Positions 14,049-55,950 of a stretch of DNA of 64,000 nt are shown piece by piece. The notes beneath the pieces were generated by a model. The model was given only the letters and a program-made list of their open reading frames with translations. It had not been told where the DNA came from and searched no databases. The position numbers and the translations under genes are program-made. Every line of letters starts with the position of its first letter. The stretch's first letter is position 1. Source of the DNA: Chitinophagales bacterium (lineage in GTDB: Bacteria; Bacteroidota; Bacteroidia; Chitinophagales; UBA2359); contig JAHDFD010000007.1 of NCBI GenBank assembly GCA_020628375.1, positions 1 through 64,000 on the forward strand. The letters are read 5' to 3'.

Positions 14049-17000
14049 ATGAGCAATGCTTACTTTCCCGTTATTTTAACCACCTTGCTGCTAAGCTTAG
14101 GTTTTAGTTTCTCTTTGTCAGCGACTATAACCGTTACTGCCCCTAGTGGATTTGAGCAAGATTTTGATTCTAACCCAGAAGGTCAAAAATGTGGAGCTTC
14201 ATTTGTAGATTTTAATGAAGACTTCTTTGAAGTTACAACCGATTGTCCTGATGGATTTACTGAGACTGTTACTGAAGAGTTTGCAACAGTTCCTTATACA
14301 GATCCTTCAAGTGGCGATGTTTTTGATCCTTCTTGTTATGATATTTATATAGTGACCTATACTGTTGAAACTCCTTGTGGTGAATCACAAACCTGGGAAG
14401 CGGTGTTTTTTCAAATTGCAGCTTCACAGGACCCCGTTCAACTTGATGTAATAATCAATTTTCCGGACTTTGAACCAAACTTTGATAATAATCCAACCCA
14501 ATTGGCTTGTACAGATCCTTACCCCACCTACACAATCGATGATTTTGATGAAACTGGAGGATGTGGCTTCATTGTAAACGAAACGATCAACGAAACCACA
14601 TTCGATGATGGTTGTATTGAGTCTTATTTCGTATCCTACATCGTAGAAGATGCTTGTTTGAATATTCGTCAGTTTTCAGCCGTTTATGAACGTCCATTGA
14701 ATCCTGGCGTGCCACCAACGGTAACAAATGTTCCTGCCAACTTTACAGATACTGACTTTGCTAATTGTGATGACGAAATACCGAACTTTACGATCGACCA
14801 ATTCGATGCAGAAGCAAGTTGTAGTTTAGTTGTAACTGAAGAGATCATTAACGTGGATCCGATTAATGATGGTTGTATAGAAACTTTTGAAATTCAATAT
14901 ATAGTTTATGATGATTGTGATAACCGTGATACACTAAAAGCATTTTTTACAAAACCATATAATGACGGTCTCGCACCAGATATAACATTGCCATCTGGAT
15001 TTGAAATTGGTTTTTTTGAAGAAAATATTGATTCAGATCCAACACAGCTTTTGTGTGGTGAAGTAGCCCCAATCTTTACGGAATCAAGTTTTTCAGCCGA
15101 ATCAGGTTGTGCGCAATTTCCAGCAGAAGTTGTTTTTACAGATGATGTAAGTGTAGATGCCTGTAATGAAATTTACACTTATACTTACACAGCTACCGAT
15201 ATTTGTAATAATGAAATGACCTATCAGGCAGTATTTCTTGTGCCAGTTAATGAAAGTATTGCCCCTGAAATTACAAATGCTCCTACAGAATTTGAACAGG
15301 ATATTGACGCTACTCCTACTATTTTAGAATGTGCAGATAACTTTCCTTCGTGGGGCGATATCTGGGATGAGTCGAGTTTTACCTTTTCAGATAATTGTAC
15401 GCCATTAGACCTGTTGGTAACAGCTACTGATGAAACTGCACCTGTAACAATAGACTGTTACGAAGAAAAAATATACACTTTTACTGTTACAGATTTATGT
15501 GGCAATTCAATTTCCTATGTAGCAAATTATTGGAAACCAGTTACTGCCTTAGTGAATCCCCCAACTATAGATGTTGCTACATATCCGGTTATTGATCCGG
15601 GCTCTTTTGAATTGAATACTGATGCTAATCCCGATACATTGACTGTTTGTGATGAAAGTTTTCCAACTTTGGCAACTAATCAGTTTGAAGCGGTAAGTAA
15701 TTGTTCACTTATAGAAGTTGATATAAGCATTACCAATGATCTGGTAACTAGCCCAAGCGGATGTACACAAACATTAACAAGAACAGTTACAGCTACGGAT
15801 AATTGCGGTAATGCCACAGAATATCAAGCGGTTTATGTAAGATTTATAAATCAGGGAGCTGTAACTGTTACAGCGCCTGCCGGTTTTGAAGAAAATACTG
15901 ATTCAACACCTGAAGATTTAGGTTGTGATACAGGCTTTACCAATTATACATTAGATGATTTTAGCGCAGCATTAGATTGTGACGAAGGAATTGTTACAAA
16001 TGAAGTAACAGAAGATATTCAGGCAAGTGCAGATGGTTGTGCAGAAACTCAAACGGTTACTTATACAATAGAAGATGTATGTGGGAATACTGCGACCTAT
16101 GTAGGAGTTTTTATTCGTACCGTATCAACTGTAGACAATGCGGTGGCTCCTTTAGTTACAGCACCTTCTGAATTTGAAGCAGGAAGTACAGATAGTACTC
16201 CAACGATTTTGGAAATATGTGGAGAAGATTACCCTGTAACCATCAATGATTTTTCAGCTACAGATAATTGTGGTGTTGCAGAAGAAACACTTGATTTTAC
16301 AGATGCTGACGATGGCTGTTTTGAAACACGAACTTATACCTATACAGCAACAGATGCTTGTGGTAATAGTACCGTTTACACAGGTGTTTATCAAAGAATC
16401 TTACCAAACGATGTTCCACCGAATGTAATTACACCTAATTCAGATTTTGTTTTGAATGGTGGAGGTAATCCTGTATTATTGGCGTGTGGTGATCCATTTC
16501 CAGATTATACAGCAGATCAGTTCACCGTAATTGATGATTGTAATCTGGAAGCTGATACGATTTTTACCATTGTCGATGAAACTTTAGAATGTATTCTTAG
16601 AAGAACAATAACGATTACAGCAACCGATACTTGTCAGAATGTTACAACTTACGAGGCAATTTATACTTCCGGTATCCCTGATGGCATACCACCAACGGTT
16701 GACCCACAGGAAGCATTTGAAGCAGGTAATGTTGATAATAACCCAACTCCGGTAACTTGTGGAGAAACACCCGATCTTTCTATCGATGATTTTGAGGAGT
16801 CAGATGGATGTAATCAGGTAATTACAGAAAATATAAGCGCACCTGTCATTACAAATGATGGCTGTCTTGAAACATTGACTTATACATACACAGCTGAGGA
16901 TGAATGTGGTGATGTTGCCACTTTTACTGGTAGCTTCTTGCGACCTTTGAATTCATTGGAGGTCAATGTTATTCCGTCTGTTAATGCTTGTCCTGACCAA

Positions 17001-20000
17001 ACGATAACTGTTCAGGCAGATGGTGGCTTCAATTGTAATGGAGGAAACTTTGACTTCGTTTTAATTAATGCAGATAATAATAGTTCAGTTGACCTGATAA
17101 CTGCTAACGGATTGACAGATGTAGTTTTTAGTAATATTCCGGAAGGAAATTATTATGTAGAAGTAACAGATAACACAGATGGATGTGTAGAACAAACAAC
17201 TACTATTGCTATAGCAGAAGGCTTGGATGGAGAATTTAGTTATGCTTGCGGGGAAACAGATAATACTTTTGTTTTAACGAATCTATCAGGAGGAAGTGGA
17301 AATTATACAGTAACATCAGATATCGATGGAACTTTAGATAATGCTACAACTGGCACTTATCAGCCATCACAAACACTTACTGCAGGAACACATACAATCA
17401 CTATTACTGATCCAAGCCTTGATCCGGCATGTGTATTGACTTTTACTATTGATGTTTATGATCCACTGACTTTGAGCTTAAGTGCCGATGATTGTGCTTT
17501 TAATGGAACAGTAAATGTTGATGTAGTTTCAGGTGGAGCTGGAACATATACAATATTCCCATCAACTATAGAAGCTCCCGGAGCTAGTAATGATATTACT
17601 TCAAATGAAACAAGCTTGAGTGGAGTTGGTAGCCTTACTGGAATTACTACAACTTCAGACTTCTATATAGTATTGGAAGATGCGAACGGATGTCAGATTT
17701 CTCAATTGATTATTTATGAAGCTCAGGTAGAACTTACAAATACATTCACATTCGATTGTACAAATCCGAATGCAGCAAGTGTTGAATTATTTGGGGCAAT
17801 TGGTGATTGGGACTTTTATTTATATGAAACAGGAACACCTTTCGATAATGGAGCTTCAGCAGTAGCTAGTCAAAGTGGAGGGATAACAGCGAACTTTACA
17901 GCCATTCCGGGTGGTGCTTATACCATTTATGCTAGTGATGCTGATGGATGTGAAGCAACACCAATAGACATTGAGATTTTTGATGCACTTAATCTTGAAA
18001 TAAGCTTAGGAGGATGTGCTTTTAATGGTGAATTAGAAGTTACAGCTGCGAATGGTGGAGCTGATCCGGCAAATACCATTGGAGGCGGTTTTGCTAATAC
18101 AGGATATACTATATTTTTAGCAAGTTCTGAAACAGCAGGCTCAGGTGATATTACTTCTAATGAAGGAACATTAACAGGAATCGGCTCTTTTACAGGTATT
18201 GATACAAGCAATGACTTTTATGTTATTCTTGAAGATGCTAATAATTGTAGAGTTGCTGTTTTAGTAGAATATATTGAATTATTGGATCTGCAAAATAATT
18301 TGAACCAGGTTTGTAACGATGCTTTAAACGAAGTGAGTGTTTCAGTTTCCGGTGGAAATCCTGATTGGGATTTTTATTTATTTGAAGCAGGAGATACCTA
18401 CGATTCGAATAATCCAGCTAACGGATCTATAGCAACGGATACTGGTGATGGCTCTGGGAATGACAATAATGGAACTTTCAGCACCATACCTGCCGGAGCT
18501 TATTTTGTCGCAGCAAGCGATGCCGATGGTTGTTCTGCAGATACTGTTGCAGTTTATGTTTATGATGAACTTGAATTAGGAATCGATCTGAATGGATGTT
18601 TCTTCGATGGTACAATTGAGGTAACAACTGTTTTAGGAGGAACAGATCCTGCTGTTACAGTTGGTGGAGGTTTCCCTGATGTTGCTTACAGTATTTTCTT
18701 ATCAAGCATAGATGCTCCGAATGGTGTGAACGATATTAGTTCTAACGAAAATAGCTTAAGCGGAACAGGAACTTTTACGGATATATCTGCGACAGCTGAC
18801 TTTTATGTTATTCTTGAAGATGCCAATGGTTGCCAGACTTCGGTACCTGTTAGTGTTAGCGAACAAGCAAGTCTCGATAATGATTTACCGGAAGATTGTA
18901 TCTCAAATATCAATACGGTTGCTGTTTCGGCAACAGGTGGTTCTCCGGATTGGACTTTCTATTTATACGATACAGGAGTGGCATTCGATAATGGTACTTC
19001 CGCTCTTGCTACTGATGCAGGTGATGGATCTGGTGCCGATGCTTCAGGTAATTTTAGCAGTGTAGCTGCCGGAACTTATACCGTTTATGCTGTTGATGCC
19101 AATGGTTGTGAAGCTGCACCGATCGATGTTGATGTGATCGATGAATTAACAATGGAAATCGATTTTGAACCATGTAGTTTTAATGGGGAGATCGAAGTTG
19201 TTAGCATTGCAGGTGGAACTGCTCCATATACAGTTACATTAACAAATGGTACAAGCTCAAATGAAGGTAGCTTAAGTGATATAGGAACATTTACGGGTGT
19301 ATCTACCGGAACATTTGAAGTAGTAGTTACTGATGATAATGGATGTGATTTCTCAATTCCGGTTGAAATAGAAGATACTGGAGAATTGGTTGATAACACT
19401 GCCGATTGTGCTTACGGTATAATTAATGTAAGTGTTAATAATGGCATTGCTGACTACGATTTCTATGTGTATCCACAAGGAGTTGCTTTTGATGGTGGAA
19501 CATCTGCAATTGATGTTTTCAATGGAGGAACTTCCGCAAATTTTAATGGTCTTGATGAAGGTGATTATACCGTTTATGCAGCTTTAAGTAACGGTTGTGG
19601 AGAATTGACAATTGATGTTTATGTGTTTGAAGAAATTTTATTAGAGCAAACCGATCTTTGTGATTATGGAACTATAATAATTGTAGCTACTGGTGGATAT
19701 TCAGATAATTATACCTATTCTATAAGTGGTGGAGTTGCACCAGATAATACTACTGGTATTTTTACTGATATTCCGGGTGGAAGCTACACTGTAACAGTCG
19801 TTGACGACAACCCTAATGGTGCTTGCCCGGTAAGTATTACAGCTACTACAGTTGATCCGATTGAAGTTGAAACCAATCAGATCTGTTATGAAGGAATTAT
19901 TGTTTCAGGTGGTACACCAGGCTATACTTATGACCTTTATGAAGCTGACGGAATTACCTTAGTCGATTCTAATAATACTGGTGTATTTCCAGGCACCGCC

Positions 20001-23000
20001 GGCGATTATGTATTGATCGTTACCGATGCAAATGGTTGCGATAATGCACCAGGCGTTCCGATTATTTGTGAAGAAGAACTTACTTGTGCAATCAATCTTA
20101 CAGAGTCTTTTACTTGTAATGATGATGGTACTTTCTCTGTAGAAATTACTTTTGAAGGAGTTGGAACTTATTCTATAGAAGAGCCTGGAAGTGGCGTAAA
20201 CTTAAGCGGACAAGCTTCTGGAACTTATACTTTCGATTTTAATGCAGGTGATAGTTATAACTTCACAGTTAGCAGTGAAGAATTAGAAGACTGTTCGGAA
20301 TCAGTTGCTAATACACCATTCTGTTGTACACTCGATGCCGTTGCTGAAGTTCAGTGTATTGGAGTTAATGGCTTTATCGTTTCTTTTGAAATTGTTGGTG
20401 ATGGGACATATACAGTTGATGATGGAGATGGAACTATTTTAACTGGCGTTTCTGCCGGACAATTAACCGTTGGAAGCCCTTTTCCGAATGGTGCCTATAA
20501 CATAACTATAACAAGTGAATCAAATCCTGAATGTGAACAAGTGCTTTCAGGAGAGCAAGATTGTTTCGATTGCAACCTTGCTGTTACCGCCGATACAGAG
20601 TGTATTGATGTCTTTAATTTTAATCTCGATCTTATTATTAACGGAAGTGGAACATTTACCGTTGATGATGGAATCAATCCGATTCAAACAGGGGTAACTG
20701 CTGGAAATGTAACAGTAGGTACTTACCCTAATGGAGCATACAATGTAATCGTAACTAGTGAATTGGATAGTGAATGTTCAGAAACAGTTTCAGGAAGTGA
20801 AGATTGCTTCGAGTGTGATCTGAATATAGAGGCTACAACTACTTGTATTGATGATCTTAATTATGAATTGACCTATACAATTTCCGGCTCAGGAACTTAT
20901 ACCGTTGAAGATGGTATCAATGGAACTCAAACCGGAGTTGCAGCCGGAACTTATACGGTTGGTGTTTTATCTAACGGAGATTATTCAATCGTTGTTACAA
21001 GTGAATATGATGATACTTGTACACAAACAGCTTCTGGTTCTGAAGATTGTTTTGTTTGCCCATTACCTGTTTCTGCTCAGGTAAACTGTTTGGATAACTT
21101 TACTTATGAGGTGTCATTTACTTTAACAGGTGATGGGACTTTCTCGATTGGTGATGGTATCAATCCGGTTCAGTCTGGTTTAACTGCTGGTGATTACACG
21201 ATAGGACCATTCGATAATGGGGCTTATAACATCATTATCACAAGTGAAGACGATGAAACCTGTACACAAACCTTAAGTGGTGAACAAGATTGCTTTGAAT
21301 GTGATCTGACAGTCAATGTAAATACAACTTGTCTTGACCTTGGAAACTATAGTTTGGAATACACAATCTCTGGTATTGGAACTTATACAGTTGATGATGG
21401 AATTAATCCTTTACAAACAGGCGTTGTGGCAGGAACATATACAATAGCTTCATTGCCAAATGGAACATATAATATTATTGTAACAAGCGAAGAAGATGAA
21501 ACTTGTACAGAAACCGCATCGGGTAGCGAAGATTGTTTCGAGTGTGAATTGAATATTACGCCAACCGTTGTTTGTAATGATGATGGCTTAGGCTTCACAG
21601 TATCTTATGAAATCATAGGTAGTGATTCTTATACAGTTGAAGATGGCATAAATGGAACACAAACGGGTGTTACTGCTGGAATTTATTCAGTAGCTTATCC
21701 AAATGGTGCTTATTCAATTGTAATCACTTCAGAAACGAATAATGAGTGTACACAAACATTAAGTGGAGATCAGGATTGCTTTGAATGTGATTTGACAGTT
21801 AATGTAAGTACATCATGTTTAGACTTAGAAAACTATAGTTTAGAATACACCATTACCGGAACAGGAACTTATACCGTTGATGATGGCATCAATCCACTTC
21901 AAACAGGCGTTGTGGCAGGAATATATACAATAGCTTCATTGCCAAATGGAACATATAATATAATCGTAACAAGCGAAGAAGATGATACTTGTACGGAAAC
22001 AGCTTCTGGTAGTGAAGATTGCTTTGAGTGTGAATTGAACGTTACGCCGACAGTTGTATGTAATGGTGATGGCTTAGGCTTTATAGTATCTTATGAAATC
22101 ACAGGCAGTGATTCTTATACGATAGAAGATGGGATAAATGGAACACAAACAGGTGTAACTGCCGGAACTTATACAGTAGCTTATCCAAATGGTGCTTATT
22201 CAATTGTAATCACTTCAGAAACAAATGAAGCATGTACACAAACCTTAAGTGGTGAACAAGATTGCTTTGAATGTGATCTGACAGTCAATGTAAATACAAC
22301 TTGTCTTGACCTTGGAAACTATAGTTTGGAATACACAATCTCTGGTATTGGAACTTATACAGTTGATGATGGAATTAATCCTTTACAAACAGGCGTTGTG
22401 GCAGGAACATATACAATAGCTTCATTGCCAAATGGAACATATAATATTATTGTAACAAGCGAAGAAGATGAAACTTGTACAGAAACCGCATCGGGTAGCG
22501 AAGATTGTTTCGAGTGTGAATTGAATATTACACCAACTATTGTTTGTAATGAAGACCTGACAGGTTATACTGTAACTTATGAGGTAACAGGCAGCGATTC
22601 TTACACAGTAGAAGATGGTATAAATGGAACACAAACAGGTGTAACAGCCGGAACTTATTCAGTAGTATATCCTAATGGTGCTTATTCAATTGTAATCACT
22701 TCAGAAACAAATGAAGCATGTACACAAACCTTAAGTGGTGAACAAGATTGCTTTGAATGTGATCTGACAGTCAATGTAAATACAACTTGTCTTGACCTTG
22801 GAAACTATAGTTTGGAATACACAATCTCTGGTATTGGAACTTATACAGTTGATGATGGAATTAATCCTTTACAAACAGGCGTTGTGGCAGGAACATATAC
22901 AATAGCTTCATTGCCAAATGGAACATATAATATTATTGTAACAAGCGAAGAAGATGAAACTTGTACAGAAACCGCATCGGGTAGCGAAGATTGTTTCGAG

Positions 23001-32000: not shown

Positions 32001-35000
32001 GGAGATTGTACCGATACTTATCAGGGTAATTACACTTGTGGAGATTCAGAAGAGTGTGATTTAAGCCTTTCTGCTCAACCAGTTTGTAATGATGATGGAA
32101 CATTTAATTTAATACTAACTATAACTGGTTCTGATAATTATAATGTTTTTGATTTCTTCACAGGCAACTTCTTAGATAATGTACCTGCAGGTACTTATGA
32201 AATAGGTCCATTCTTCGACGAATTCTATGAAGTATTTGCTGAAACATCTGATGGAGGATTCTTCGGGTTCTGCTCACAATTCGTTAGTGGTCAATATAAT
32301 TGCGATGGTGATTGTGATCTGAATGTACTTCAGGAGGTTTTCTGTAATGATGATGGCTCTTTCTTGGTAGAAGTAACTGTTGAAGGTGGTAATACTTATG
32401 ATATTTTCGATGACTTTAACGGAGAAGTTATAAGTGGAGTCGAAGAAGGAGTATATGAGTTCGGACCATACTTCGATGAATTCTATGCCTTTACAGTATT
32501 CGATAATGATGGTGGTTGTAGCCAGAGTGTATTTGGTCAGGGAGTTTGTGAAGATACTGGCGGTTGCGATCTGTTCGTTTCACACAGTGTTGAATGCGAC
32601 GATGATACGAATGGCTATTTTGTAACGCTTGAAATTACAGGCTCGGAAGCTTACACGATCACAGATCAATTCGGAACTTTGATCGATAATAATGTAACAG
32701 CAGGAACATATACTTACGGACCATATTATTTAACTAACTATGGCTTTAGTATTTTCGATGATAGTGGAGGATTCTTCGGTTGTAGTCAATTTATTTCAGG
32801 TTCGTTTGAATGTTCTTTACCTGGACCTTGTGATTTAACCGTTCTTGCAACGCCTGTTTGTCAGGATGGTGACCTGGGTAACTTCGGACTTGATCTTCAA
32901 ATTAATGGTTCAAGTACTTACACCGTAATTGTCAATGGTGGATTTGGTGGATCAGGACAACAATACAATAATACAGAACCAGGAACCTTATCAATATATC
33001 CAATTCCTGAAGGCTTCTACTTTATTCAGGTTATTGATGAAGCAAGTAACGACTGTACACAATTCTTGAATGGTAATTTCTCTTGTGATGGAATTATTGA
33101 ATGTGATCTGCAGGCAAATGTTGAATATGTTTGTTTGAGTGAGAACGAATACGAACTAGTTGTGAACATCGAAGGAAGTGGAAACTACTTTGTTGATATA
33201 GATTTCTTCAATGAAGGGCAATATACAGCAGGTACTTATACTTTCGGACCGTATGAAACGAATGGTTTTGAATTCTACAATGTAAGCGTTTACGATAACT
33301 CTGGCTTCTTCGGAGAATGCTTCCAGAATATCAGTGGATCATTCTCTTGTGATCCTGATAATCCTTGTGATATTGAAACAGACATAAGTTTTGTATGTGA
33401 TGAAGATGATGTACTGTTCGTTGAAGTAACCGTAACTGGAGATGGTACTTATCAGATCTTCGACTTCTTTACTGGTGAATTCCAACAAGGAGATGCAGGT
33501 ACTTACACTTTCGGACCATACTTTGAGCAGTTCTACGGATTTGATGTGTTCAATGAAGATAGTGGATGTAACGAAACTTATCAGGGGTCTTACTTGTGCG
33601 AGCCAATACCGGCTTGTGATCTGTTCCTTACAGCGGTACCGATTTGTCAGGATGATTCTAACGAATACTTCTTAGAAGTAACTGTACAAGGTAGCGGAGA
33701 ATATGTGCTATTCAGCGGATTCTTCGGTTCTGAACCAATAGATACTGTTACCGCCGGAACATATACTTATGGTCCTTATATCATTAATAACTACAGCATT
33801 TTTGCCAATGATGTTGAAGATGGTGGATTCTTCGGTAATTGTTTCCAGCAGGTAGCCGGAGAAATTCAGTGTAATACATCGGGGCAACCTTGTGATTTGA
33901 ATGTTGCAGTCGATATCGAATGTGTTACAGATAATGAATATTCTGTTAACTTGAATATCAGCGGAAGTGGAACATATTCTATCGATGATGGAAGTGGTTC
34001 TGTATTAAGTGGTGTTGAGCCTGGTAATATTTCACTCGGACCTTACAGTGTAGTAAATTATAGTATTCAGATCACACAGGAAGGAAATCTGGCATGTACA
34101 CAAACCATTGCAGGTACTTATGAATGTTCTGCTCCTGATATTTGTAATTTACAAGCTTCGGCAACACCAGTTTGTAATTCTAATGGAACTTATGTGCTGG
34201 AAGTTGAAATTATAGGTGATGGCGTATTTGAAATTGAAGCAAATGGTGAAACACAAACTGGTGAAGCAGGTAGTTATTCCTTTGGTGATTTTGAAGAAGG
34301 TAGTTATGAGGTAATAATTGTTAATCCTAATATCATTGGATGTTCACAAACAATTACGGGTGATATACAATGTACACAAGATCCTCTTTGTTCGATCGAC
34401 TTTAATGTTACACCTTCTTGTGATCAAGCTGGATTCTACAATTTATTATTGGATATTCAGGGTGATGAACCTTTCTATACAGTTATTATAGATGCTGGTG
34501 CATTCAATGATGTTTTCCCAGGTGTGCCTCCGGGTGTTTATCCACTCGATTTCATTCCAAATGGTAATTACTTTATTGAAATAGTAAGTGAAACAGATCC
34601 TGATTGTTTTGCTAGTTTTTCTGGCTCTTACGAATGTACAGACGAAGAACCTCCGTGTGATCTTGTTGCTAATGCAACGCCGGTATGTATAGATTTATTT
34701 AGTTATAATCTGGAAGTTATAGTAGAAGGTAGTGGTGAATTTGAATTGATCTATAATGGTAATTCAGAATCAGTTACAGCAGGAACATATACCGTAGGAC
34801 CATTCTTAAATAGTGATTATGAGCTTGAAGTAGTAGGTAGTGAATTTTGTAGTCAGTTTATTAGTGGGATTTTTGATGATTGTGGTGATGGACCTACACC
34901 TTGCGACCTATTCGCTAGCTATGAGTTAATATGTTTAAGCGATGATTTACCGAACTATAATGTAGAATTAACCATTACTGGTTCAGGAACTTATACTGTT

Positions 35001-38000
35001 TCAGGAAATGGCTTTGATGATATCGTGAATGCTACAGCCGGAACTTATACCTTGGAGAATCTGACTGCTGAAAATATCAATATATTTATTGAAGCAGAAG
35101 GTGTCAATAATTGTTTCCAGAACTTACAAGGCTTACGTCAATGTCCGGTGGCGGTTACGCCTGTTTGTGATGATCTTTCAGCATCTATCGAGGTTGTTTG
35201 TAATGATGACGGTTCTATCGAATTGGTTATTACTATTGAAGGTGATAATACTTACGATATTCTTGGTGCTCAATCAGGATTTGTTTTTGCAGAAGGTGTT
35301 AGTGCAGGTGAAACTGTAATAGGACCATTCAATAATCCGAATGTTGATGAATTTAATTTACTTGTAGTAGATAATGAAGACGAAGATTGTTTTGAAACAG
35401 TAAATGGTTCTATCCCTTGTAATGATCAGCCACCAATACTTTGTAATCTGAATGCTTCGTTAACAACAGATTGTGTTGATGAAGAAAGTTACATTATCGA
35501 CCTTACCATAGAAGGAACAGGCACCTATACCGTTCAGGATGGAACCTTTACCGATGATGGTTCAGCAGGCTTATTCATCTTTGAATTCTCTACCGATATT
35601 TTCCCTGATGAAATTTCTTGGGAATTATACAATGATAATACAGGTGATGTGGTAGCGAATGGAGCAGGGTATGAAGAAGCTGAAACTTATACAGAAACAT
35701 TTGAAGATCTTGATCCAACAGCTAGTTATACCTTGTTATTATTAGATTCATTTGGCGATGGCTGGACGGTTGACTTCGGACCTCCAAACCCAGATGCAGG
35801 ACAATATTCAATTACCGATGCAGAAGGTAATATTATTGCAGAAGGAATATTTGAAGATGGTAACGAATTGGAAATATCATTAGGATTCCCAAGTAATATA
35901 GTATTGAATGAAATAACAGGAGTTACAGCAGGAACAATACAGTTAGGTCCATTCTTCGAAGAAGATTATACGATTACAATATTTGAAGAAGGAAATCCTG
36001 ATTGCTTTACGATTATTTCTGGTTCTGAAGACTGTTCTGAACCACAACCACCTCTGTGTAATATTGAGGTAAGTAGTTCAGTAAACTGCGAATCTCAGGA
36101 AGCCTTTACTTTAATGGTTGATATTACCACACCAGGTACTTATACCATTAACGATGGCGTGAATGAACCACTTACCGGACAGAACGAGGGAACTATCGAA
36201 GTAGGACCATTGTCGCCGGGTGCTTATACCGTAACCGTAATTAGTGAAGAAGACGAAACTTGTACTCGTACGATCAGTGGGGTTAATAATTGCCCTCCTG
36301 CACCTTGTGATCTGGAAGTGAATTCGGTTGTTGATTGTTTAAATGAAGAATCATTCATTGTTACAGTTGATATTGCAGGAAATGATACTTATACAGTAGA
36401 AGATAATTACGGAAATGTTCAAAATGGAGTTAGTGCAGGTCAGTTATTCCTTGGACCTTACCCGAATGGTACTTTTGAAATTATAATTATCAGCGAGAAT
36501 GTTGAAAATTGTTTTGAAACTATTTCAGGTATCAAAGATTGTTCAATTTCAACCTGTGATCTGGATGTAGATTATATAACTAGTTGTAATGATGATGGAA
36601 GTGGATTTACTTTAAGCTTGAATATTGATGGAAATGATACTTATAGTATCGATACAGGCATAAATCTGATTACCGGACAGAATGGTTCTGTTGATATTGA
36701 TTTACCGAATGGTGCGTTCAATGTGGTAATTTCAGCCGAAAATATTCCTGATTGCTCGTATGTAGTTTCAGGGAATCGAGATTGTTCAACTGATGGGTGT
36801 TCTATTTTGGCAACCGCTACTACAAGTTGTATTGATGATTCTGAAAGTTACTTCATAACAGTAGATCTTGTAGGAGATAATACTTATACACTTTCTGATG
36901 GAATTAATGAAATTACGGGTGCAAGTTCAGGACAAATATTATTAGGTCCTTTAGATACACCAACTTACACGATTACCATAATTGATGAAAGTAATAACGA
37001 ATGTGCCTTCGAGCTTGATGGTGAATCGGATTGTGTTCCTGATATTATTTGTGATCTGGAGCTAAGCCATGAAGTGAAATGTATAGAAGGAGTTGACTCA
37101 ATGTATGAAGTAGAAATAACGATTATCGGTAGTGGTACTTACAGCGTTGCCAATTCAACCGAAACGTTACAAACAGGTTTAACAGCAGGCACGTATGGTT
37201 ACATTTTTGAAAATGGGGCTTATGAGTTAACCGTTTCTAGCGAATCTATCAACGATTGTTCAGAAACAATATCTGGTTTATTTGATTGTACTCCTCCTCC
37301 TGTATGTTCTGTTCAGGCTACACCTACGATAATTTGTAACGATGATAATACTTATTTTGTAACATTCGTTCTGATTGGAAATAGTAATTACACTGTTAAT
37401 GGAGTAACAACATTAGATGATGTAGTCGGTGGTATGGAAGTAATAACCGGACCTTTCAGTGAATCGAGTTATAGTATAACAATAACCGATAATGAACTTG
37501 AAGATTGCTTATTAGTTCTTAGTGAAGATAACATCGATTGCTCGGTTCCTCCTGTTTGTGATTTGGAAGTGAGTCAGGAAGCCGTTACTTGTATAGATGA
37601 TAACAGCTTCACAGTTAGTATTAATATCTCAGGAAGTGATACTTACTCAGTATCAGACGCAAGTGGGGTAGTGGCAACTGGATTAAGTGCAGGAACTTAT
37701 GACTTTGTCAGTGAAAATGGTAATTACGCTTTTGAAGTAATTAATGAAGTGATTGAAGGTTGCTCTGAGTCAGTAAGTGGAATTCAAAATTGCTTAACAC
37801 CTACTCCATGTATCTTTACTGTAAATGCTGATGTTGCATGTATTGGTAACGATCTGTATTTTGTAAATATCGAACTAACAGGAGATGGTACTTATACCAT
37901 TTCAAGTGGAGACGAGATATTAACAAACCAGACTGCCGGAAATATACTATTCGGACCTTTATCAGGTTTTGAGTACAATATATTGGTTGAGAATGAAGGT

Positions 38001-39209
38001 GTTGAAGATTGTTCTTTTGAGTTAACAGGAGAAGCGCCTTGTGCAATAACTTCGATCAGTAATTTCGTTTGGGAAGATATGAACGAGAATGGTTTACAGG
38101 ATGAAGGAGAACCGGGTATTGCAGATGTGATCGTTTCATTGTTTGGAGCAGGTGCTGATGCAATATTTGGAACAGATGATGATATTGCCATTTCTGTAAT
38201 GACAGATGAAAATGGACAGTATATGTTCGATGACCTTTTTGCCGGTGATTATTATGTGGTAGTTGATATTCCGGAAAATTATACACCAACTGCTCAGAAT
38301 GCTGGTGATGATGATCTGGATAGTGATATTAATGCTGAAGGAGAAACAAGTGTTATCAGTATTGCCGGAGGGCAAAGTAATGCTTCAATTGATGCAGGTT
38401 TCATAAATCAGTGTTCAGGATTTATCGTTTCAGCAACTCAGGAATGTTCACACCCCGAAGAAGGTATGTATTATGTTTCTTATACGATACAAGGTGGAAA
38501 CGCTCCATTCAGTTATACAATCGGAGATGAGACTATGACCTTGGCAGAAGATGTTCTGGTATTAGAATATACAGAAGGCGATTCTTACGATATTACGTTT
38601 AACGATGCCAATGACTGTACTGTGAATCTGGCTGCAACTCCACCTCCGTGTGGTGTTGTAAGTGTTGAGCTGATCGAGTTTGATGGAGAAATACTTACTG
38701 CCGGAAATAATTTATTCTGGAGTACTGCTTCTGAAATTGATAATGATTACTTCACTGTTGAGCGTTCATTGAATGGTGTTGACTTTGAAGCGATCGGTTC
38801 GGTAAATGCTATCGGTAATAGTTCGGTTGTTCAGCGTTACAGCTTATTGGATAATGATGCACCTAATGGTAAAGCATACTACCGATTAAGTATATTCGAT
38901 ACTAATGGTAAGCAGGAGTTCGCGCCTAATATCGTTGTATTGGAAAGAACAGTATCGGTTGATTTCAATGTATATCCTAATCCGGTAGTAAATGAATTAA
39001 CTATTGATTTTGACGCGGCAATTGCTGGTGATAATACAATTATTACCGTATTCGATGTTTCAGGAAAACTGTTAAGCCAATATGAGTATATCAATGTTGA
39101 AGGAGCAAATCAATTTGTTATCGATATGGCTTCTTACACAGCAGGCACTTATCTGGTTACGCTTCAGAATAAAGAACTTCAGAAAGCTGTTCCGGTTATC
39201 AAGCAATAG
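14049..39209 (+). CDS. Giant 8,386-residue T9SS-secreted repeat protein (putative adhesin)
   Basis: A signal peptide (about residues 1-25) is followed by about ten HYR/Ig-like repeats (27-970), SprB-like repeats (971-2007), about 68 four-cysteine repeats (2008-8000), an SdrD-B-like domain (about 8001-8120), one further repeat-like domain, a linker with TASEIDNDYFTVERS, and a T9SS type-A sorting domain (about 8300-8386, VYPNPV...DVSGKLL). The protein should be exported by Sec, cross the outer membrane by T9SS and be attached to or shed from the surface. It is longer than SprB of Flavobacterium johnsoniae, the known giant gliding adhesin, which has related repeats. Each four-Cys unit probably forms two disulfides. 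Residues 1402-3873 hold no Lys, Arg or His, so the molecule is very acidic and lacks trypsin sites there. The gene stands alone, with its own promoter and a strong terminator. An adhesive, matrix or gliding role is inference. Confidence 0.9.
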   Translation: MSNAYFPVILTTLLLSLGFSFSLSATITVTAPSGFEQDFDSNPEGQKCGASFVDFNEDFFEVTTDCPDGFTETVTEEFATVPYTDPSSGDVFDPSCYDIYIVTYTVETPCGESQTWEAVFFQIAASQDPVQLDVIINFPDFEPNFDNNPTQLACTDPYPTYTIDDFDETGGCGFIVNETINETTFDDGCIESYFVSYIVEDACLNIRQFSAVYERPLNPGVPPTVTNVPANFTDTDFANCDDEIPNFTIDQFDAEASCSLVVTEEIINVDPINDGCIETFEIQYIVYDDCDNRDTLKAFFTKPYNDGLAPDITLPSGFEIGFFEENIDSDPTQLLCGEVAPIFTESSFSAESGCAQFPAEVVFTDDVSVDACNEIYTYTYTATDICNNEMTYQAVFLVPVNESIAPEITNAPTEFEQDIDATPTILECADNFPSWGDIWDESSFTFSDNCTPLDLLVTATDETAPVTIDCYEEKIYTFTVTDLCGNSISYVANYWKPVTALVNPPTIDVATYPVIDPGSFELNTDANPDTLTVCDESFPTLATNQFEAVSNCSLIEVDISITNDLVTSPSGCTQTLTRTVTATDNCGNATEYQAVYVRFINQGAVTVTAPAGFEENTDSTPEDLGCDTGFTNYTLDDFSAALDCDEGIVTNEVTEDIQASADGCAETQTVTYTIEDVCGNTATYVGVFIRTVSTVDNAVAPLVTAPSEFEAGSTDSTPTILEICGEDYPVTINDFSATDNCGVAEETLDFTDADDGCFETRTYTYTATDACGNSTVYTGVYQRILPNDVPPNVITPNSDFVLNGGGNPVLLACGDPFPDYTADQFTVIDDCNLEADTIFTIVDETLECILRRTITITATDTCQNVTTYEAIYTSGIPDGIPPTVDPQEAFEAGNVDNNPTPVTCGETPDLSIDDFEESDGCNQVITENISAPVITNDGCLETLTYTYTAEDECGDVATFTGSFLRPLNSLEVNVIPSVNACPDQTITVQADGGFNCNGGNFDFVLINADNNSSVDLITANGLTDVVFSNIPEGNYYVEVTDNTDGCVEQTTTIAIAEGLDGEFSYACGETDNTFVLTNLSGGSGNYTVTSDIDGTLDNATTGTYQPSQTLTAGTHTITITDPSLDPACVLTFTIDVYDPLTLSLSADDCAFNGTVNVDVVSGGAGTYTIFPSTIEAPGASNDITSNETSLSGVGSLTGITTTSDFYIVLEDANGCQISQLIIYEAQVELTNTFTFDCTNPNAASVELFGAIGDWDFYLYETGTPFDNGASAVASQSGGITANFTAIPGGAYTIYASDADGCEATPIDIEIFDALNLEISLGGCAFNGELEVTAANGGADPANTIGGGFANTGYTIFLASSETAGSGDITSNEGTLTGIGSFTGIDTSNDFYVILEDANNCRVAVLVEYIELLDLQNNLNQVCNDALNEVSVSVSGGNPDWDFYLFEAGDTYDSNNPANGSIATDTGDGSGNDNNGTFSTIPAGAYFVAASDADGCSADTVAVYVYDELELGIDLNGCFFDGTIEVTTVLGGTDPAVTVGGGFPDVAYSIFLSSIDAPNGVNDISSNENSLSGTGTFTDISATADFYVILEDANGCQTSVPVSVSEQASLDNDLPEDCISNINTVAVSATGGSPDWTFYLYDTGVAFDNGTSALATDAGDGSGADASGNFSSVAAGTYTVYAVDANGCEAAPIDVDVIDELTMEIDFEPCSFNGEIEVVSIAGGTAPYTVTLTNGTSSNEGSLSDIGTFTGVSTGTFEVVVTDDNGCDFSIPVEIEDTGELVDNTADCAYGIINVSVNNGIADYDFYVYPQGVAFDGGTSAIDVFNGGTSANFNGLDEGDYTVYAALSNGCGELTIDVYVFEEILLEQTDLCDYGTIIIVATGGYSDNYTYSISGGVAPDNTTGIFTDIPGGSYTVTVVDDNPNGACPVSITATTVDPIEVETNQICYEGIIVSGGTPGYTYDLYEADGITLVDSNNTGVFPGTAGDYVLIVTDANGCDNAPGVPIICEEELTCAINLTESFTCNDDGTFSVEITFEGVGTYSIEEPGSGVNLSGQASGTYTFDFNAGDSYNFTVSSEELEDCSESVANTPFCCTLDAVAEVQCIGVNGFIVSFEIVGDGTYTVDDGDGTILTGVSAGQLTVGSPFPNGAYNITITSESNPECEQVLSGEQDCFDCNLAVTADTECIDVFNFNLDLIINGSGTFTVDDGINPIQTGVTAGNVTVGTYPNGAYNVIVTSELDSECSETVSGSEDCFECDLNIEATTTCIDDLNYELTYTISGSGTYTVEDGINGTQTGVAAGTYTVGVLSNGDYSIVVTSEYDDTCTQTASGSEDCFVCPLPVSAQVNCLDNFTYEVSFTLTGDGTFSIGDGINPVQSGLTAGDYTIGPFDNGAYNIIITSEDDETCTQTLSGEQDCFECDLTVNVNTTCLDLGNYSLEYTISGIGTYTVDDGINPLQTGVVAGTYTIASLPNGTYNIIVTSEEDETCTETASGSEDCFECELNITPTVVCNDDGLGFTVSYEIIGSDSYTVEDGINGTQTGVTAGIYSVAYPNGAYSIVITSETNNECTQTLSGDQDCFECDLTVNVSTSCLDLENYSLEYTITGTGTYTVDDGINPLQTGVVAGIYTIASLPNGTYNIIVTSEEDDTCTETASGSEDCFECELNVTPTVVCNGDGLGFIVSYEITGSDSYTIEDGINGTQTGVTAGTYTVAYPNGAYSIVITSETNEACTQTLSGEQDCFECDLTVNVNTTCLDLGNYSLEYTISGIGTYTVDDGINPLQTGVVAGTYTIASLPNGTYNIIVTSEEDETCTETASGSEDCFECELNITPTIVCNEDLTGYTVTYEVTGSDSYTVEDGINGTQTGVTAGTYSVVYPNGAYSIVITSETNEACTQTLSGEQDCFECDLTVNVNTTCLDLGNYSLEYTISGIGTYTVDDGINPLQTGVVAGTYTIASLPNGTYNIIVTSEEDETCTETASGSEDCFECELNITPTIVCNDDLTGYTVTYEITGSDSYTVEDGINGTQTGVTAGTYSVVYPNGAYSIVITSETNEACTQTLSGEQDCFECDLTVNVNTTCLDLGNYSLEYTISGIGTYTVDDGINPLQTGVVAGTYTIASLPNGTYNIIVTSEEDETCTETASGSEDCFECELNITPTIVCNDDLTGYTVTYEITGTDSYIVEDGVNGTQTGVTAGTYSVVYPNGAYSIVITSETNEVCTQTLSGEQDCFECDLTVNVSTSCLDLENYSLEYTISGIGTYTVDDGINPLQTGVVAGSYTINSLPNGAYNIIVTSEADETCTETVSGSEDCFECELNITPTVVCNEDLTGYTVTYEITGIDSYIVEDGVNGTQTGVTAGTYSVTYPNGAYTIVITSETNEACTQTLSGEQDCFECDLTVNVNTTCLDLGNYSLEYTISGIGTYTVDDGINPLQTGVAAGTYTISSIPNGTYNIIVTSEADETCTETVSGSEDCFECELSINPALDCNEDLSGYTVTYEITGSDSYIVEDGINGIQTGITAGTYTVAYPNGPYTIVITSETNEACTQTLNGEQDCFECDLIVNVNTECVDLLNYSLEYTITGTGTFSVDDGINPLQTGIVAGTYAIDSLPNGAYNIIVTSETDETCTETVSGSEDCFECELPVESVITCNDDGSGFSVNYIITGNDFYTIVDGVNGTQTGVTAGTYTVAYPNGAYSIIITSETNAECTQTLSGSEDCFECGLLVTSTTNCIDDFSYNVFVNIAGNGTYTVDDGIGGTLTGVSNGNLILGPYQNGAYTIIITSEVEAECSEVINVNEECSEPPVCDVTASANTVCLNDDSYEVILSLGGVGTFTIDDGINPALTNQVAGTITLGPIPNGNYTIIITSEADPNCSIPISGQRDCAPDIPCDISAIAATGCVDFDSFELSVELTGSSTYTLTDGVNVINGASSGTIVLGTLPNGGYTLTITDELNDECTVTLNGNEDCTGEINCDVTVEAEVQCISNAEYIVDITITGTSTYTVDDQQGNVFGGVGSGTYTVGPFDSNTAYQIDVLDEANDLCFKTVSGTKVCEPGVGCDPGIVIDKQCLPDNSGYQLEVILSGSSTYSLYDGLFVDLPNNNLLTTGLQAGDSFIIGPFDNSETYFFLMLDENDPLCYQDYIGSFDCQGGCDLEANAFPVCNEDGTFNVEIEVFGTGVYNVTGDVFDEVTGGETLSYGPYNPGDTYYFLLVDIADDNCIQDFLGTADCEAEEPCDINAAVDFTCFDNETYDIIFNLNASGTFTITASNGTVINNATQLGNPYNLGNYPNGGYSVVVQDEANEECNATFVGSHICQPPPPCDLEVTNNNVCIDEFTYNVVLTITGSDTYDIINNGTVVQTAIGAGTYTVGPIPNGNYNILIVGNEDITCERAIEGSFSCSEDLPCDLVVSADKECTGDGEYELVLTISGSSVYTISDGNTIYASDQTAGSITIGPFSNGEYSIEVVDNANEDCFQNLNGSYECIACDIAANFVPVCQENGEYVLELDLSGSSSYTVSDGVNNDITGLTSGQYEIGPIPSGIYSITITDETNADCSQTYEGVFSCEPPVCDLIVTTETQCQEDGTFSLTLDIIGGSDYEIYDEDGTSIGAQGEGAFEIDGLTGTDYEFFVQDLNNPNCNTPVLGSIDCNDNPLVCNLSLNAQPICNDNGSFYFELELPAGSTYTIDYGGPGGGVDESNVPAGIYTTIDFSEFYGFTVIAENIPDCEQQIFGTFGCDVGEPGDPECDIDFSYTYECFDDGLYDFIFTIEGEGLFDVYTTTSGGNCNQVGYLLESVPAGVYQFGPYGENGCPNNTVLEQVGTDCSTQLFATASCTPGCLMEVFMTPECNVDGTFNVIVEIDGDDTYNIETWSGEELGFNDVEPGTYTVGPFDEEYDVVVYVNGFEDCFYRDYDDVACEDVTPPPCDVDATVAFTCNDDGTYTVDLFIINGSGTYNFSEFGGGGGPGGGGPVLLGESLDVGQYNFGPFEVDGEENLFVLTQEENINCEKLFYLSPACDEDCDLTAFFIRECNDDGTFNVVVNVSGSSTYSILNWPNESIGLDNVSAGLYTAGPYENEYDIIVVDDNNPQDCFFNDFGEYYECGEQPPVCDLFISIEIECNEDGSFFLVFDIQGDDVYDILINDFIPGSNNDIDFEPVSDLPAGTYTYGPFTGTAYDFIIVGSDFNPGGPGQGPPEGCFQLLSSEVDCIGQPPVCDLDFDFEIICQVNGAYSLALDITGSDVYEIEIDGEENIENVTAGSIEIGPYNQEQISINIVSVNSGSCTQALNTQNPCDVDVPCDLSATTDIYCNPDGTYSIDVTITGSDIYDIYRTDNGEEGTGFLFEFFSDDWPTEMFWELVNDNTGQTIYSTVPGVYFEPFQFYSEIMDELDPNASYTLILRDTFGDGWTLGGGGGDFAVYDLATGNLIEEGIFEDGSEFIIELGQPVSAGTGNPDDPILSDLPAGTYTVGPFNTNVYDFTIIAQSDDACTFEVQGNYSCGSVNCGVSTEYEFECTEDGTGYFVVLDFRGAGTYTITDGVNPNLTGQTQGMVTVGPIPNGIFEIEIFDENNPEDCFLAISGVNDCGGGTPCDLDVDAIFECIGDEVNVLVNITGSSVYEVDFGNGTVVSDVLQGTFEYAYGVTSLNYDITVTDLNEEDCNQTLSGFYSCEAPPVCNISAFPTFTCIDDLTYQTTLNLSGSSTYTITVGGTTLTGQTAGQIDLGEFNNGANTIIILDEANPNCSQSLQANYACSAVSYCDLSVELNPVCQDDGFYLEITISGSSTYSVFDFGDFAGFENIANGLTAGTYTVGPILADFDFYNIQIIDENDDECSQFLGGTSPCGDQCDLFASVETECISNTSYNIILTIYGEGSYSVSDPLGNFTQGYEAGTYTFGPYTGSNYNLSIFEDFGFFCSQFFSGTRECTTPNICDLNVSAAPRCEEDEPNGFFLDLTIEGSSSYSVVYSDGFGSSTQISGLTAGNTTVGPVQEGFYFIQVVDETNGDCTDTYQGNYTCGDSEECDLSLSAQPVCNDDGTFNLILTITGSDNYNVFDFFTGNFLDNVPAGTYEIGPFFDEFYEVFAETSDGGFFGFCSQFVSGQYNCDGDCDLNVLQEVFCNDDGSFLVEVTVEGGNTYDIFDDFNGEVISGVEEGVYEFGPYFDEFYAFTVFDNDGGCSQSVFGQGVCEDTGGCDLFVSHSVECDDDTNGYFVTLEITGSEAYTITDQFGTLIDNNVTAGTYTYGPYYLTNYGFSIFDDSGGFFGCSQFISGSFECSLPGPCDLTVLATPVCQDGDLGNFGLDLQINGSSTYTVIVNGGFGGSGQQYNNTEPGTLSIYPIPEGFYFIQVIDEASNDCTQFLNGNFSCDGIIECDLQANVEYVCLSENEYELVVNIEGSGNYFVDIDFFNEGQYTAGTYTFGPYETNGFEFYNVSVYDNSGFFGECFQNISGSFSCDPDNPCDIETDISFVCDEDDVLFVEVTVTGDGTYQIFDFFTGEFQQGDAGTYTFGPYFEQFYGFDVFNEDSGCNETYQGSYLCEPIPACDLFLTAVPICQDDSNEYFLEVTVQGSGEYVLFSGFFGSEPIDTVTAGTYTYGPYIINNYSIFANDVEDGGFFGNCFQQVAGEIQCNTSGQPCDLNVAVDIECVTDNEYSVNLNISGSGTYSIDDGSGSVLSGVEPGNISLGPYSVVNYSIQITQEGNLACTQTIAGTYECSAPDICNLQASATPVCNSNGTYVLEVEIIGDGVFEIEANGETQTGEAGSYSFGDFEEGSYEVIIVNPNIIGCSQTITGDIQCTQDPLCSIDFNVTPSCDQAGFYNLLLDIQGDEPFYTVIIDAGAFNDVFPGVPPGVYPLDFIPNGNYFIEIVSETDPDCFASFSGSYECTDEEPPCDLVANATPVCIDLFSYNLEVIVEGSGEFELIYNGNSESVTAGTYTVGPFLNSDYELEVVGSEFCSQFISGIFDDCGDGPTPCDLFASYELICLSDDLPNYNVELTITGSGTYTVSGNGFDDIVNATAGTYTLENLTAENINIFIEAEGVNNCFQNLQGLRQCPVAVTPVCDDLSASIEVVCNDDGSIELVITIEGDNTYDILGAQSGFVFAEGVSAGETVIGPFNNPNVDEFNLLVVDNEDEDCFETVNGSIPCNDQPPILCNLNASLTTDCVDEESYIIDLTIEGTGTYTVQDGTFTDDGSAGLFIFEFSTDIFPDEISWELYNDNTGDVVANGAGYEEAETYTETFEDLDPTASYTLLLLDSFGDGWTVDFGPPNPDAGQYSITDAEGNIIAEGIFEDGNELEISLGFPSNIVLNEITGVTAGTIQLGPFFEEDYTITIFEEGNPDCFTIISGSEDCSEPQPPLCNIEVSSSVNCESQEAFTLMVDITTPGTYTINDGVNEPLTGQNEGTIEVGPLSPGAYTVTVISEEDETCTRTISGVNNCPPAPCDLEVNSVVDCLNEESFIVTVDIAGNDTYTVEDNYGNVQNGVSAGQLFLGPYPNGTFEIIIISENVENCFETISGIKDCSISTCDLDVDYITSCNDDGSGFTLSLNIDGNDTYSIDTGINLITGQNGSVDIDLPNGAFNVVISAENIPDCSYVVSGNRDCSTDGCSILATATTSCIDDSESYFITVDLVGDNTYTLSDGINEITGASSGQILLGPLDTPTYTITIIDESNNECAFELDGESDCVPDIICDLELSHEVKCIEGVDSMYEVEITIIGSGTYSVANSTETLQTGLTAGTYGYIFENGAYELTVSSESINDCSETISGLFDCTPPPVCSVQATPTIICNDDNTYFVTFVLIGNSNYTVNGVTTLDDVVGGMEVITGPFSESSYSITITDNELEDCLLVLSEDNIDCSVPPVCDLEVSQEAVTCIDDNSFTVSINISGSDTYSVSDASGVVATGLSAGTYDFVSENGNYAFEVINEVIEGCSESVSGIQNCLTPTPCIFTVNADVACIGNDLYFVNIELTGDGTYTISSGDEILTNQTAGNILFGPLSGFEYNILVENEGVEDCSFELTGEAPCAITSISNFVWEDMNENGLQDEGEPGIADVIVSLFGAGADAIFGTDDDIAISVMTDENGQYMFDDLFAGDYYVVVDIPENYTPTAQNAGDDDLDSDINAEGETSVISIAGGQSNASIDAGFINQCSGFIVSATQECSHPEEGMYYVSYTIQGGNAPFSYTIGDETMTLAEDVLVLEYTEGDSYDITFNDANDCTVNLAATPPPCGVVSVELIEFDGEILTAGNNLFWSTASEIDNDYFTVERSLNGVDFEAIGSVNAIGNSSVVQRYSLLDNDAPNGKAYYRLSIFDTNGKQEFAPNIVVLERTVSVDFNVYPNPVVNELTIDFDAAIAGDNTIITVFDVSGKLLSQYEYINVEGANQFVIDMASYTAGTYLVTLQNKELQKAVPVIKQ
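14127..16958 (+). repeat. About ten HYR/Ig-like protein repeats
   Basis: Residues about 27-970 of the giant protein fall into ten units of 85-103 residues. Each has a start like PPxVTxPxxFE, a Cys near residue 25, an acidic TIDDF-like strand, a Cys after DN/DG, and an ending like YTATDxCGNxTxYxAVY. The pattern resembles HYR domains found in many Bacteroidota surface proteins. The units are diverged from one another, unlike part of the later array. Confidence 0.75.
16959..20070 (+). repeat. SprB-like repeat region
   Basis: Residues about 971-2007. The first unit has the SprB-type features (CNGGNFDFVLINADN, then IPEGNYYVEVTDNTDGC). It is followed by four longer units of about 175-195 residues, starting near 17460, 17983, 18564 and 19140. 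Each has a first half with CxFNGxxEV and SNExxLSGxGxFTGI...FYVILEDANGC, and a second half with DWDFYLYE...GAYTxYAxDADGC. Degenerate SprB units close the region. Confidence 0.65.
20571..25187 (+). repeat. 19 in-frame tandem units of exactly 243 bp with a 486-bp higher-order period
   Basis: Every unit encodes 81 residues with Cys at position 1 (CDL/CEL), about 11, about 69 and about 78 (DCFE). From 21300 to 25187 sixteen units alternate between type A (CDLTVNV..C, DDGINPLQTGV) and type B (CELNITP..C, EDGINGTQTGV), giving eight 486-bp pairs. The A units at 21300, 22272, 22758 and 23244 look identical over all 243 bp. The whole block encodes no Lys, Arg or His. No unit is shifted or interrupted. 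Confidence 0.9.
30010..30360 (+). other. Extra domain inserted in a four-Cys unit (copy 1)
   Basis: Inside a unit that begins with CDLSATTDIYC, about 110 residues are inserted after IYDIYRTDNG and before SDLPAGTYTVGPF. The inserted sequence has FLFEFFSDDWPTEMFWELVN, then SYTLILRDTFGDGWTLGGG, and ends with EEGIFEDGSEF. It resembles the small YDSxGDGxxxG domain seen in many marine bacterial and animal secreted proteins. Confidence 0.65.
35560..35905 (+). other. Extra domain inserted in a four-Cys unit (copy 2)
   Basis: The same domain is inserted after YTVQDG in a unit beginning CNLNASLTTDC: FIFEFSTDIFPDEISWELYN, SYTLLLLDSFGDGWTVD, AEGIFEDGNEL. It sits in the same loop as copy 1 although twenty units lie between them. 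Confidence 0.65.
38052..38412 (+). other. SdrD-B-like domain of the giant protein
   Basis: Residues about 8001-8121. The start SNFVWEDMNENGLQDEGEPG, the calcium-binding-like GADAIFGTDDD and the ending DSDINAEGETSVISIAGGQ match the SdrD B-type (Cna-B-related) repeat of surface proteins. It separates the repeat array from the C-terminal secretion region, as a spacer would. Confidence 0.8.
38960..39209 (+). other. T9SS type-A C-terminal sorting domain
   Basis: The last 80 or so residues show the motifs of the Por secretion tail: FNVYPNPVVNELTI, then TVFDVSGKLLSQYEY, then YTAGTYLVTLQNKELQKAV. It follows a YYRLSIFDTNGKQEF linker that commonly precedes such tails. It predicts export by the type IX system. 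Confidence 0.9.
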
Positions 39210-39230
39210 CAAATGACTGAGATTTGATCA

Positions 39231-39267
39231 AAAGGGAGTTGTTCGATTTGAACGACTCCCTTTTTTT
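39231..39267 (+). terminator. Intrinsic terminator of the giant gene
   Basis: The stem AGGGAGTTGTTC (39233-39244) pairs with GAACGACTCCCT (39250-39261), with one G-T pair, around the loop GATTT. An AAA run precedes it and seven Ts follow. It begins 21 bp after the stop codon. Confidence 0.92.
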
Positions 39268-54756: not shown

Positions 54757-55950
54757 ATGAAAAAGTATATGCTTCGATGTTTATCGATAGTCTTTTTTTC
54801 CTTTGTTTATACGAATGCACAGATCGTAATTGAGCCTTCCGATCTTCCACAGGAAAATAAAAGCGTAGAAATAGCAGTCAGCGACGGATTTGGTTTTGAC
54901 TTGGGTGTACCTTCAGAAGAAGAACAAAGCTGGGATTTTTCTTTCCTGCCTTTTGTTGAAAGTAAAACATTCAGTTTGCAAACTTCCGATGATTTCTTAG
55001 GTAGTTATGCTTTCCCTGAGGCAACAATGGCACAAACAACACCTTTTGCCGACGTATTGGGCGTTTCATTGACCTATTTGGTCGATCTGCCTATCAATCT
55101 TCCTGATGCTAATGTTTTTTATGGTTTGAATGAAGAAGGAAGTGTCAACTTTCAGGGCATATTTACCGACTTCGATATTGAAGGAGCAACCGATGGTGAT
55201 ACAGCGAGTATTGCACTCGAACCACCTTTCAACTACTATCCGATCGGAACATTAGGTGATACGATCAAGAACCAGTCGAGCTTTTTCTTTAAAGTTCCGG
55301 TTGACCAGGATCTTGTAGATATTTTATTAGGAACGGGTTTCGATCTGGAAGGCTTGGGTATTTCACTGGAAATATTAGACGCTGGTGTAACAGTTAATGT
55401 TGCTAATACCGTTGAAATAGATGCTTATGGAAACTTAACAACGCCTAAAGGAGAATACGACGTTTTGCGTTTTAACGAAACCATGTTCTTAGATGTAAGA
55501 ATTAATGCTTTTTTAGGGTTGCTGGACTTAGGAGAAGTATTCAATACGAATGCAGTTGTTAAGCAATTTCGTTTTTGGGCTAAAGAACTTCATCATCCGG
55601 TACTTACAGTAGTCGAATTCGATGAACAAGGAGGAACAAGTACATTGTCTGTAGAATATATCAATGAAGAACAGGAAATAGAAGAACCGCCTGTTACGAG
55701 TATCGAAAATAATATTTCAGCCAATTGTAAGGTATATCCCAACCCGGTTAGCAACCTTTTGTTAATCGAATTACCCGACACATGGAGCAATGCCACTGCG
55801 TGTTTATTCGATATAAATGGAAAACTTATTCTAACAGAAAATGTAAATCAAATTGATAACATCGAAGTTGATGGTCTGAATAGTGGAATGTATTTTCTTG
55901 AATTAAGTGCCAAAGGTGAAACTATAAATAAAACCTTTCTGAAACAATAA
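54757..55950 (+). CDS. T9SS-secreted protein, paralog 1
   Basis: The 397-residue product has a signal peptide (about 1-21, ending YTNAQ), a beta-rich domain of about 290 residues (WDFSFLPF, FYGLNEEGS, NYYPIGTLGDT, EIDAYGNLTTPKGEYDVLRF), and a T9SS type-A tail (about 322-397, CKVYPNPVSNLLLIELP, LFDINGKLI). It has no catalytic motif that I recognise. The next gene encodes a clear paralog. Confidence 0.8.
   Translation: MKKYMLRCLSIVFFSFVYTNAQIVIEPSDLPQENKSVEIAVSDGFGFDLGVPSEEEQSWDFSFLPFVESKTFSLQTSDDFLGSYAFPEATMAQTTPFADVLGVSLTYLVDLPINLPDANVFYGLNEEGSVNFQGIFTDFDIEGATDGDTASIALEPPFNYYPIGTLGDTIKNQSSFFFKVPVDQDLVDILLGTGFDLEGLGISLEILDAGVTVNVANTVEIDAYGNLTTPKGEYDVLRFNETMFLDVRINAFLGLLDLGEVFNTNAVVKQFRFWAKELHHPVLTVVEFDEQGGTSTLSVEYINEEQEIEEPPVTSIENNISANCKVYPNPVSNLLLIELPDTWSNATACLFDINGKLILTENVNQIDNIEVDGLNSGMYFLELSAKGETINKTFLKQ

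Follow-up and report, generated by a model that had tools for sequence, protein, structure and literature searches.

Does an uninterrupted reading frame of 25 kb in an uncultured Chitinophagales genome encode one giant protein and, if so, what is that protein built from and what might it do for the cell? The frame lies in a 64-kb stretch of DNA (Chitinophagales bacterium, GCA_020628375.1, contig JAHDFD010000007.1, positions 1-64,000, forward strand; hereafter the window) belonging to a 69%-complete MAG of 3.3 Mb (G000). An earlier sequence-only reading had described the locus as a single gene for a T9SS-exported mosaic protein, larger than SprB and possibly forming a dedicated surface structure. 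Here we examine the gene, its repeats and its relatives.

The frame holds 8,386 codons with zero internal stops; at this composition, a frame so long would be free of stops by chance with a probability of ~10^-272. GC content by codon position is 0.49/0.42/0.22. Among eight tandem copies of a 486-bp block within the gene, synonymous differences far exceed nonsynonymous ones (pN/pS = 0.20), and these copies are under purifying selection. The frame is thus upheld as one uninterrupted coding unit. Its product (892.7 kDa, pI 4.05) contains 344 Cys and only 46 Lys + Arg residues (18 K, 28 R), and is to our knowledge among the longer single bacterial protein chains known. It also exceeds SprB, as had been stated (8,386 vs. 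6,497 aa; PMC9870892).

The gene stands alone, in agreement with the earlier description: its upstream neighbour, YebC, is on the opposite strand 416 bp away, and a CvfB-like gene follows 501 bp downstream. A strong terminator was likewise recovered, with a 16-pair stem (Table 1). The promoter-like element that had been proposed was not recovered; the single Bacteroidota -33/-7 pattern tried gave no match upstream of the gene. A phage or viral origin was considered and rejected, there being no relatives in viral contigs or phage records. Elsewhere in the window are two adjoining T9SS type A proteins (54757-55950 and 56037-57446), the latter carrying a PKD domain; two neighbouring TPR histidine kinases, nearly equal in size and matching in domain order (48026-49954 and 50067-51992), apparently a tandem duplication; and a 760-aa protein (61163-63445) with cold-shock domains, a long Lys/Ala/Glu-rich low-complexity tail and strong AT skew.

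Table 1. Features of the giant gene and its product (window coordinates; residues refer to the 8,386-aa protein).
Feature	Coordinates	Strand	Basis
Giant T9SS substrate, single gene, 8,386 aa	14049..39209	+	ORF, composition, selection among copies
Putative Sec signal peptide, residues 1-25, MSNAYFPVILTTLLLSLGFSFSLSA	14049..14123	+	Hydrophobic core by eye in translation
Ten HYR_4C-type units (PF23237), residues ~27-965, Cys 48-953; proposed distal tip	14127..16943	+	Pfam, profile comparison
Twelve SprB-type two-Cys repeats, residues ~985-2009, Cys 996-1997	17001..20075	+	Pfam, profile comparison
68 four-Cys units in array, residues 2013-7998; proposed stalk	20085..38042	+	Cys spacing, alignment
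Eight tandem copies of 486-bp two-unit block (units 6-21)	21253..25163	+	Exact repeats 400-500 bp
Inserted module, DTFGDGW motif, loop of unit U40 (ends approximate)	30000..30368	+	Alignment
Inserted module, DSFGDGW motif, same loop in unit U60 (ends approximate)	35550..35903	+	Alignment
SdrD_B-like domain (PF17210), residues 8002-8118	38052..38402	+	Pfam 98.6 bits
Hybrid SprB-type four-Cys unit U69, residues 8122-8201	38412..38651	+	Cys pattern
T9SS type A sorting domain (PF18962 / TIGR04183), residues 8308-8386	38970..39206	+	Pfam, NCBIfam
Intrinsic terminator, 16-pair stem then T run	39230..39264	+	Sequence scan

The proposed anatomy of HYR-like, SprB-like, four-Cys and SdrD-B-like parts closed by a T9SS tail is supported. 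The putative signal peptide is unusual for a Sec substrate; it has no N-terminal positive charge, and the first Lys or Arg of the chain is residue 47. The best of the N-terminal HYR_4C-type units scores 39.1 bits against a cut-off of 27 (one unit lies above the curated cut-off). The twelve two-Cys repeats fall below the cut-off of the Pfam SprB model (PF13573); in profile-profile comparison they match other SprB-type repeats with a probability of 98.0, and the last of them already has Cys2, Cys3 and Cys4. The earlier count of about 68 four-Cys units holds for the array, although the total is 69 when the hybrid unit U69, beyond the SdrD_B-like domain, is included. SdrD_B, LTD and DUF6856 labels assigned to the array by a whole-protein Pfam scan were partial or weak matches to single units, and were judged spurious. 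The type A tail is well above threshold (TIGR04183, 40.6 bits vs. cut-off 23; PF18962, 50.4 vs. 27) and the SprA and GldM families of the T9SS are present in the genome, in support of the claimed T9SS export. Genome-wide there are 142 type A tail matches, several of them in frames of 4,000-8,400 aa.

The usual four-Cys unit spans 79 residues from Cys1 to Cys4 (C-x9-C-x57-C-x9-C), with consecutive units separated by linkers of mostly 2 or 5 aa. Units share ~30% mutual identity except in the eight-copy 486-bp block, which is a recent expansion; its copy number depends on the assembly because the exact repeats there are 400-500 bp long. Each of the 513 full-length units aligned has all four cysteines. 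In both U40 and U60 a module of ~115 aa is inserted at the same loop, and homologous FGDGW-like inserts occur at the equivalent loop of single stalk units in the giants of two relatives (G004 and G013). These modules have no match in Pfam, NCBIfam or PDB, and the AlphaFold2 model of the U40 module is all-beta with a pLDDT of 73, a confidence too low to interpret its fold matches. They may be side-mounted binding modules.

The unit had been described as fitting no nameable family and as perhaps undescribed. The first part stands, in that no Pfam, NCBIfam or PDB entry matches the unit over its length, and a scan of 50 four-Cys units, in which 38 families gave some match at E 1, does not have PF13573 among the 25 that were listed. 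The unit is nevertheless related to SprB-type repeats. Profile-profile comparison with the SprB-type repeats that a different giant of this genome carries gave a probability of 96.7 (E 4.7e-10, 65 of 79 columns), in an alignment that places the two middle cysteines of the four-Cys unit in register; the corresponding values were 94.8 for pooled SprB-type repeats and 83.9 for the SprB-type section of the giant itself, while all controls (reversed, column-shuffled and HYR units) were ≤3%. Given this homology and the aligned middle cysteines, the four-Cys unit is best read from its sequence profile as an SprB-type repeat to which an outer pair of cysteines has been added. On the same comparison, the idea that the unit is an orphan family or has a wholly new fold was rejected. 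HYR_4C, the kind to which the ten N-terminal units belong, was also rejected as ancestor of the stalk unit (0.5% probability), the two being unrelated by profile comparison.

AlphaFold2, given two adjacent units and an alignment of 43 tandem rows, returned an all-beta model of Ig/FN3-like beta-sandwich type with a pLDDT of 96.8. Foldseek matches to this model are Ig/FN3-type tandems, many of them from unrelated FN3 proteins, and matches of this kind are generic. Direct coupling analysis of 551 units (effective number ~497) shows covariation consistent with strand A running parallel to strand G in the register i to i+68, at position pairs (3,71), (5,73) and (9,77), a register that the cysteine pairs (1,69) and (11,79) also follow. 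With the cysteines left out, no other diagonal tested scores as high as this parallel A-G one (permutation p = 0.009), with an antiparallel diagonal (sum 74) a close second (0.88 vs. 1.03 for the parallel one). Because the parallel register covaries in step with the cysteine pairs, the sequence data suggest a pairing of Cys1 with Cys3 and Cys2 with Cys4, which would staple the first strand to the last. Couplings among the near-invariant Cys columns themselves do not discriminate between pairings. Co-loss of cysteines was rejected as a clean proof of pairing, the losses being too few and their types conflicting. Two cases agree with the suggested pairing: in a unit common to G005 and G014 the only cysteines left are Cys1 and Cys3, and in a weak G017 unit they are Cys2 and Cys4. 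Counting against the pairing, which does not explain them, are the two-Cys SprB-type repeats, whose cysteines correspond to Cys2 and Cys3; these would not be partners in the staple topology.

The unit profile matches all 20 genomes examined from the Chitinophagales family to which this genome belongs; many of these have large arrays, and several match weakly and with few hits. Beyond the family, the profile matches weakly in two genomes from a single further family of the order, and a sample of 295 other genomes from across the phylum yielded no match at E 1e-6. The family members named by a contig scan with a narrower alignment are MAGs labelled Chitinophagales or Bacteroidetes bacterium. Arrays in relatives vary widely in length, with 27 units (4,361 aa), 49 (5,944 aa), 50 (5,957 aa), 60 (6,992 aa) and 81 (9,537 aa), and with 106 units in a frame truncated at its 5' end (11,190 aa). 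The C-terminal base (SdrD_B domain plus type A tail) is identical in design in 4 of 4 relatives checked (G003, G005, G008 and G015), and the N-terminal part differs between relatives (e.g., DUF11 domains in G013). The gene neighbourhood of the giants is not common to relatives.

The 8,386-aa protein is not the sole giant of its genome, where further giants range from 3,594 to 7,401 aa. Among these is a 5,580-aa protein on contig C8 (within 80001-120000) with ~14 divergent four-Cys units. Lys + Arg make up 0.5-1.5% of all giants examined in this genome (that of the window and those on contigs C4, C8, C18, C27, C31, C32 and C34), compared with 9-15% in most neighbouring cellular genes, and residues 1402-3873 of the 8,386-aa protein form a 2,472-residue stretch with no Lys or Arg. 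The depletion is common to the giants examined, and the notion that it is peculiar to this protein was therefore dropped. It may protect the giants against trypsin-like proteases, and tryptic proteomics would overlook them.

On balance, we think it probable that the giant is a single-chain surface tether or adhesin stalk, variable in length and poorly extensible, with the N-terminal domains as its tip. The Sec pathway would take the chain into the periplasm, and the SprA/PorV route would then carry it across the outer membrane. Since T9SS type A substrates are released or LPS-linked after transport (PMC10994853), the C-terminus is read as the base and the N-terminus as the tip: the tail would be removed, the new C-terminus linked to LPS (or the protein shed), and the HYR-type and SprB-type domains left at the far end. 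Within each stalk unit, two disulfides, one at either end, would staple the first strand to the last, which would run parallel to it. A pulling force would then be routed via these staples, leaving the part from Cys2 to Cys3 as a shielded core and the domain unable to unfold. Such a stalk would resist proteases and behave as a rope that hardly stretches; at 3.5-4 nm per domain its length would be very roughly 240-280 nm. Units gained or lost in tandem, as in the recent 486-bp expansion, would determine its reach, and its likely job would be to adhere to surfaces, particles or other cells or to capture them. The dedicated surface structure of the sequence-only reading is strengthened by a design conserved across the family, and we retain the structure itself as a proposal.

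Other roles deserve consideration. SprB of Flavobacterium johnsoniae (PF13573) is itself a giant T9SS surface protein whose repeat core and middle cysteine pair align with those described here, and the presence of SprB-type repeats, a size in the SprB class (SprB, 6,497 aa; PMC9870892) and six PorP/SprF-like proteins above cut-off in the genome would all fit a gliding adhesin of the SprB/RemA kind, moved over the cell surface by the gliding machinery. The unit differs from SprB, however, in its extra outer cysteine pair, and it is missed by the Pfam model. The tail of the giant is of type A and that of SprB of type B (PMC10994853); no SprF-like gene adjoins the giant, with none of 7 PF11751 matches on its contig (C21); and the SprB matches above cut-off in the genome fall outside it, for the most part in giants on C32, C34, C18 and C27. 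The tail type and the lack of an SprF-like gene nearby make a gliding role less likely, and we consider it very improbable. Type A export leaves open a second fate, in that such substrates may be released as well as linked to LPS (PMC10994853), and a very acidic, K/R-poor and Cys-rich chain could suit a matrix or biofilm polymer that is shed after tail cleavage instead of serving as a cell-bound tether. A conserved base combined with a variable tip better fits an oriented, anchored fibre, and a shed polymer seems unlikely.

The remaining alternative is a predation appendage resembling the grappling hook of Aureispira, which would catch prey before T6SS killing. The hook protein GhpA forms a heptamer. 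Like the giant, it is a very large T9SS substrate, and it has Ig/FN3-like domains of the kind predicted for the giant. The top 50 Foldseek matches include several fragments of GhpA amid many FN3 tandems; FN3-type matches are generic, however, their TM-scores are low, and no sequence relation of the giant to the GhpA chains in PDB was found by phmmer or by the unit profile. Ixotrophy combines gliding, T9SS-secreted hooks and a T6SS (PMC11205867). A Bacteroidota-type T6SS TssC was detected in 5 of the 20 family genomes (G003, G004, G006, G013 and G017), and genomes with TssC have more unit matches (Mann-Whitney p = 0.007, a statistic that ignores phylogeny, completeness and assembly). Against this, TssC was not found in the 69%-complete genome of the window, nor in the array-bearing G005, G014 and G008. 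We judge a hook of this kind to have a low probability.

For the tether that we favour, the closest mechanical parallels are the isopeptide- and ester-locked stalks of Gram-positive pili and adhesins, spy0128 and Cpe0147 (PMC8382745), which are Ig-like tandem stalks with the first-to-last strand link that is proposed here. In spy0128 this covalent link makes the domain inextensible to 800 pN; domains of Cpe0147 likewise become inextensible through such a link, and in its C1 domain an engineered disulfide has that effect too (PMC8382745). The giant differs from both in its two predicted disulfides per unit and in being a single, T9SS-exported chain of a Gram-negative bacterium, and no sequence relation is claimed.

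What emerges is a domain subfamily that has no name yet, numbers hundreds of copies within one bacterial family and probably descends from the SprB-type repeat. The analysis also yields a concrete mechanical prediction, an Ig-like stalk with double disulfide stapling, and the natural variants of 27-106 units would allow the dependence of reach on length to be tested. More tentatively, and with less confidence than we attach to the tether itself, the four-Cys unit could be the disulfide counterpart of isopeptide-locked pilin domains, making these proteins covalently inextensible, built-to-length Gram-negative cables of up to ~11,000 residues. If this is true, disulfides on a T9SS-exported chain answer the same problem for which Gram-positive pili use isopeptide and ester bonds, and it may be with such cables that a family of uncultured Chitinophagales holds prey or particles.
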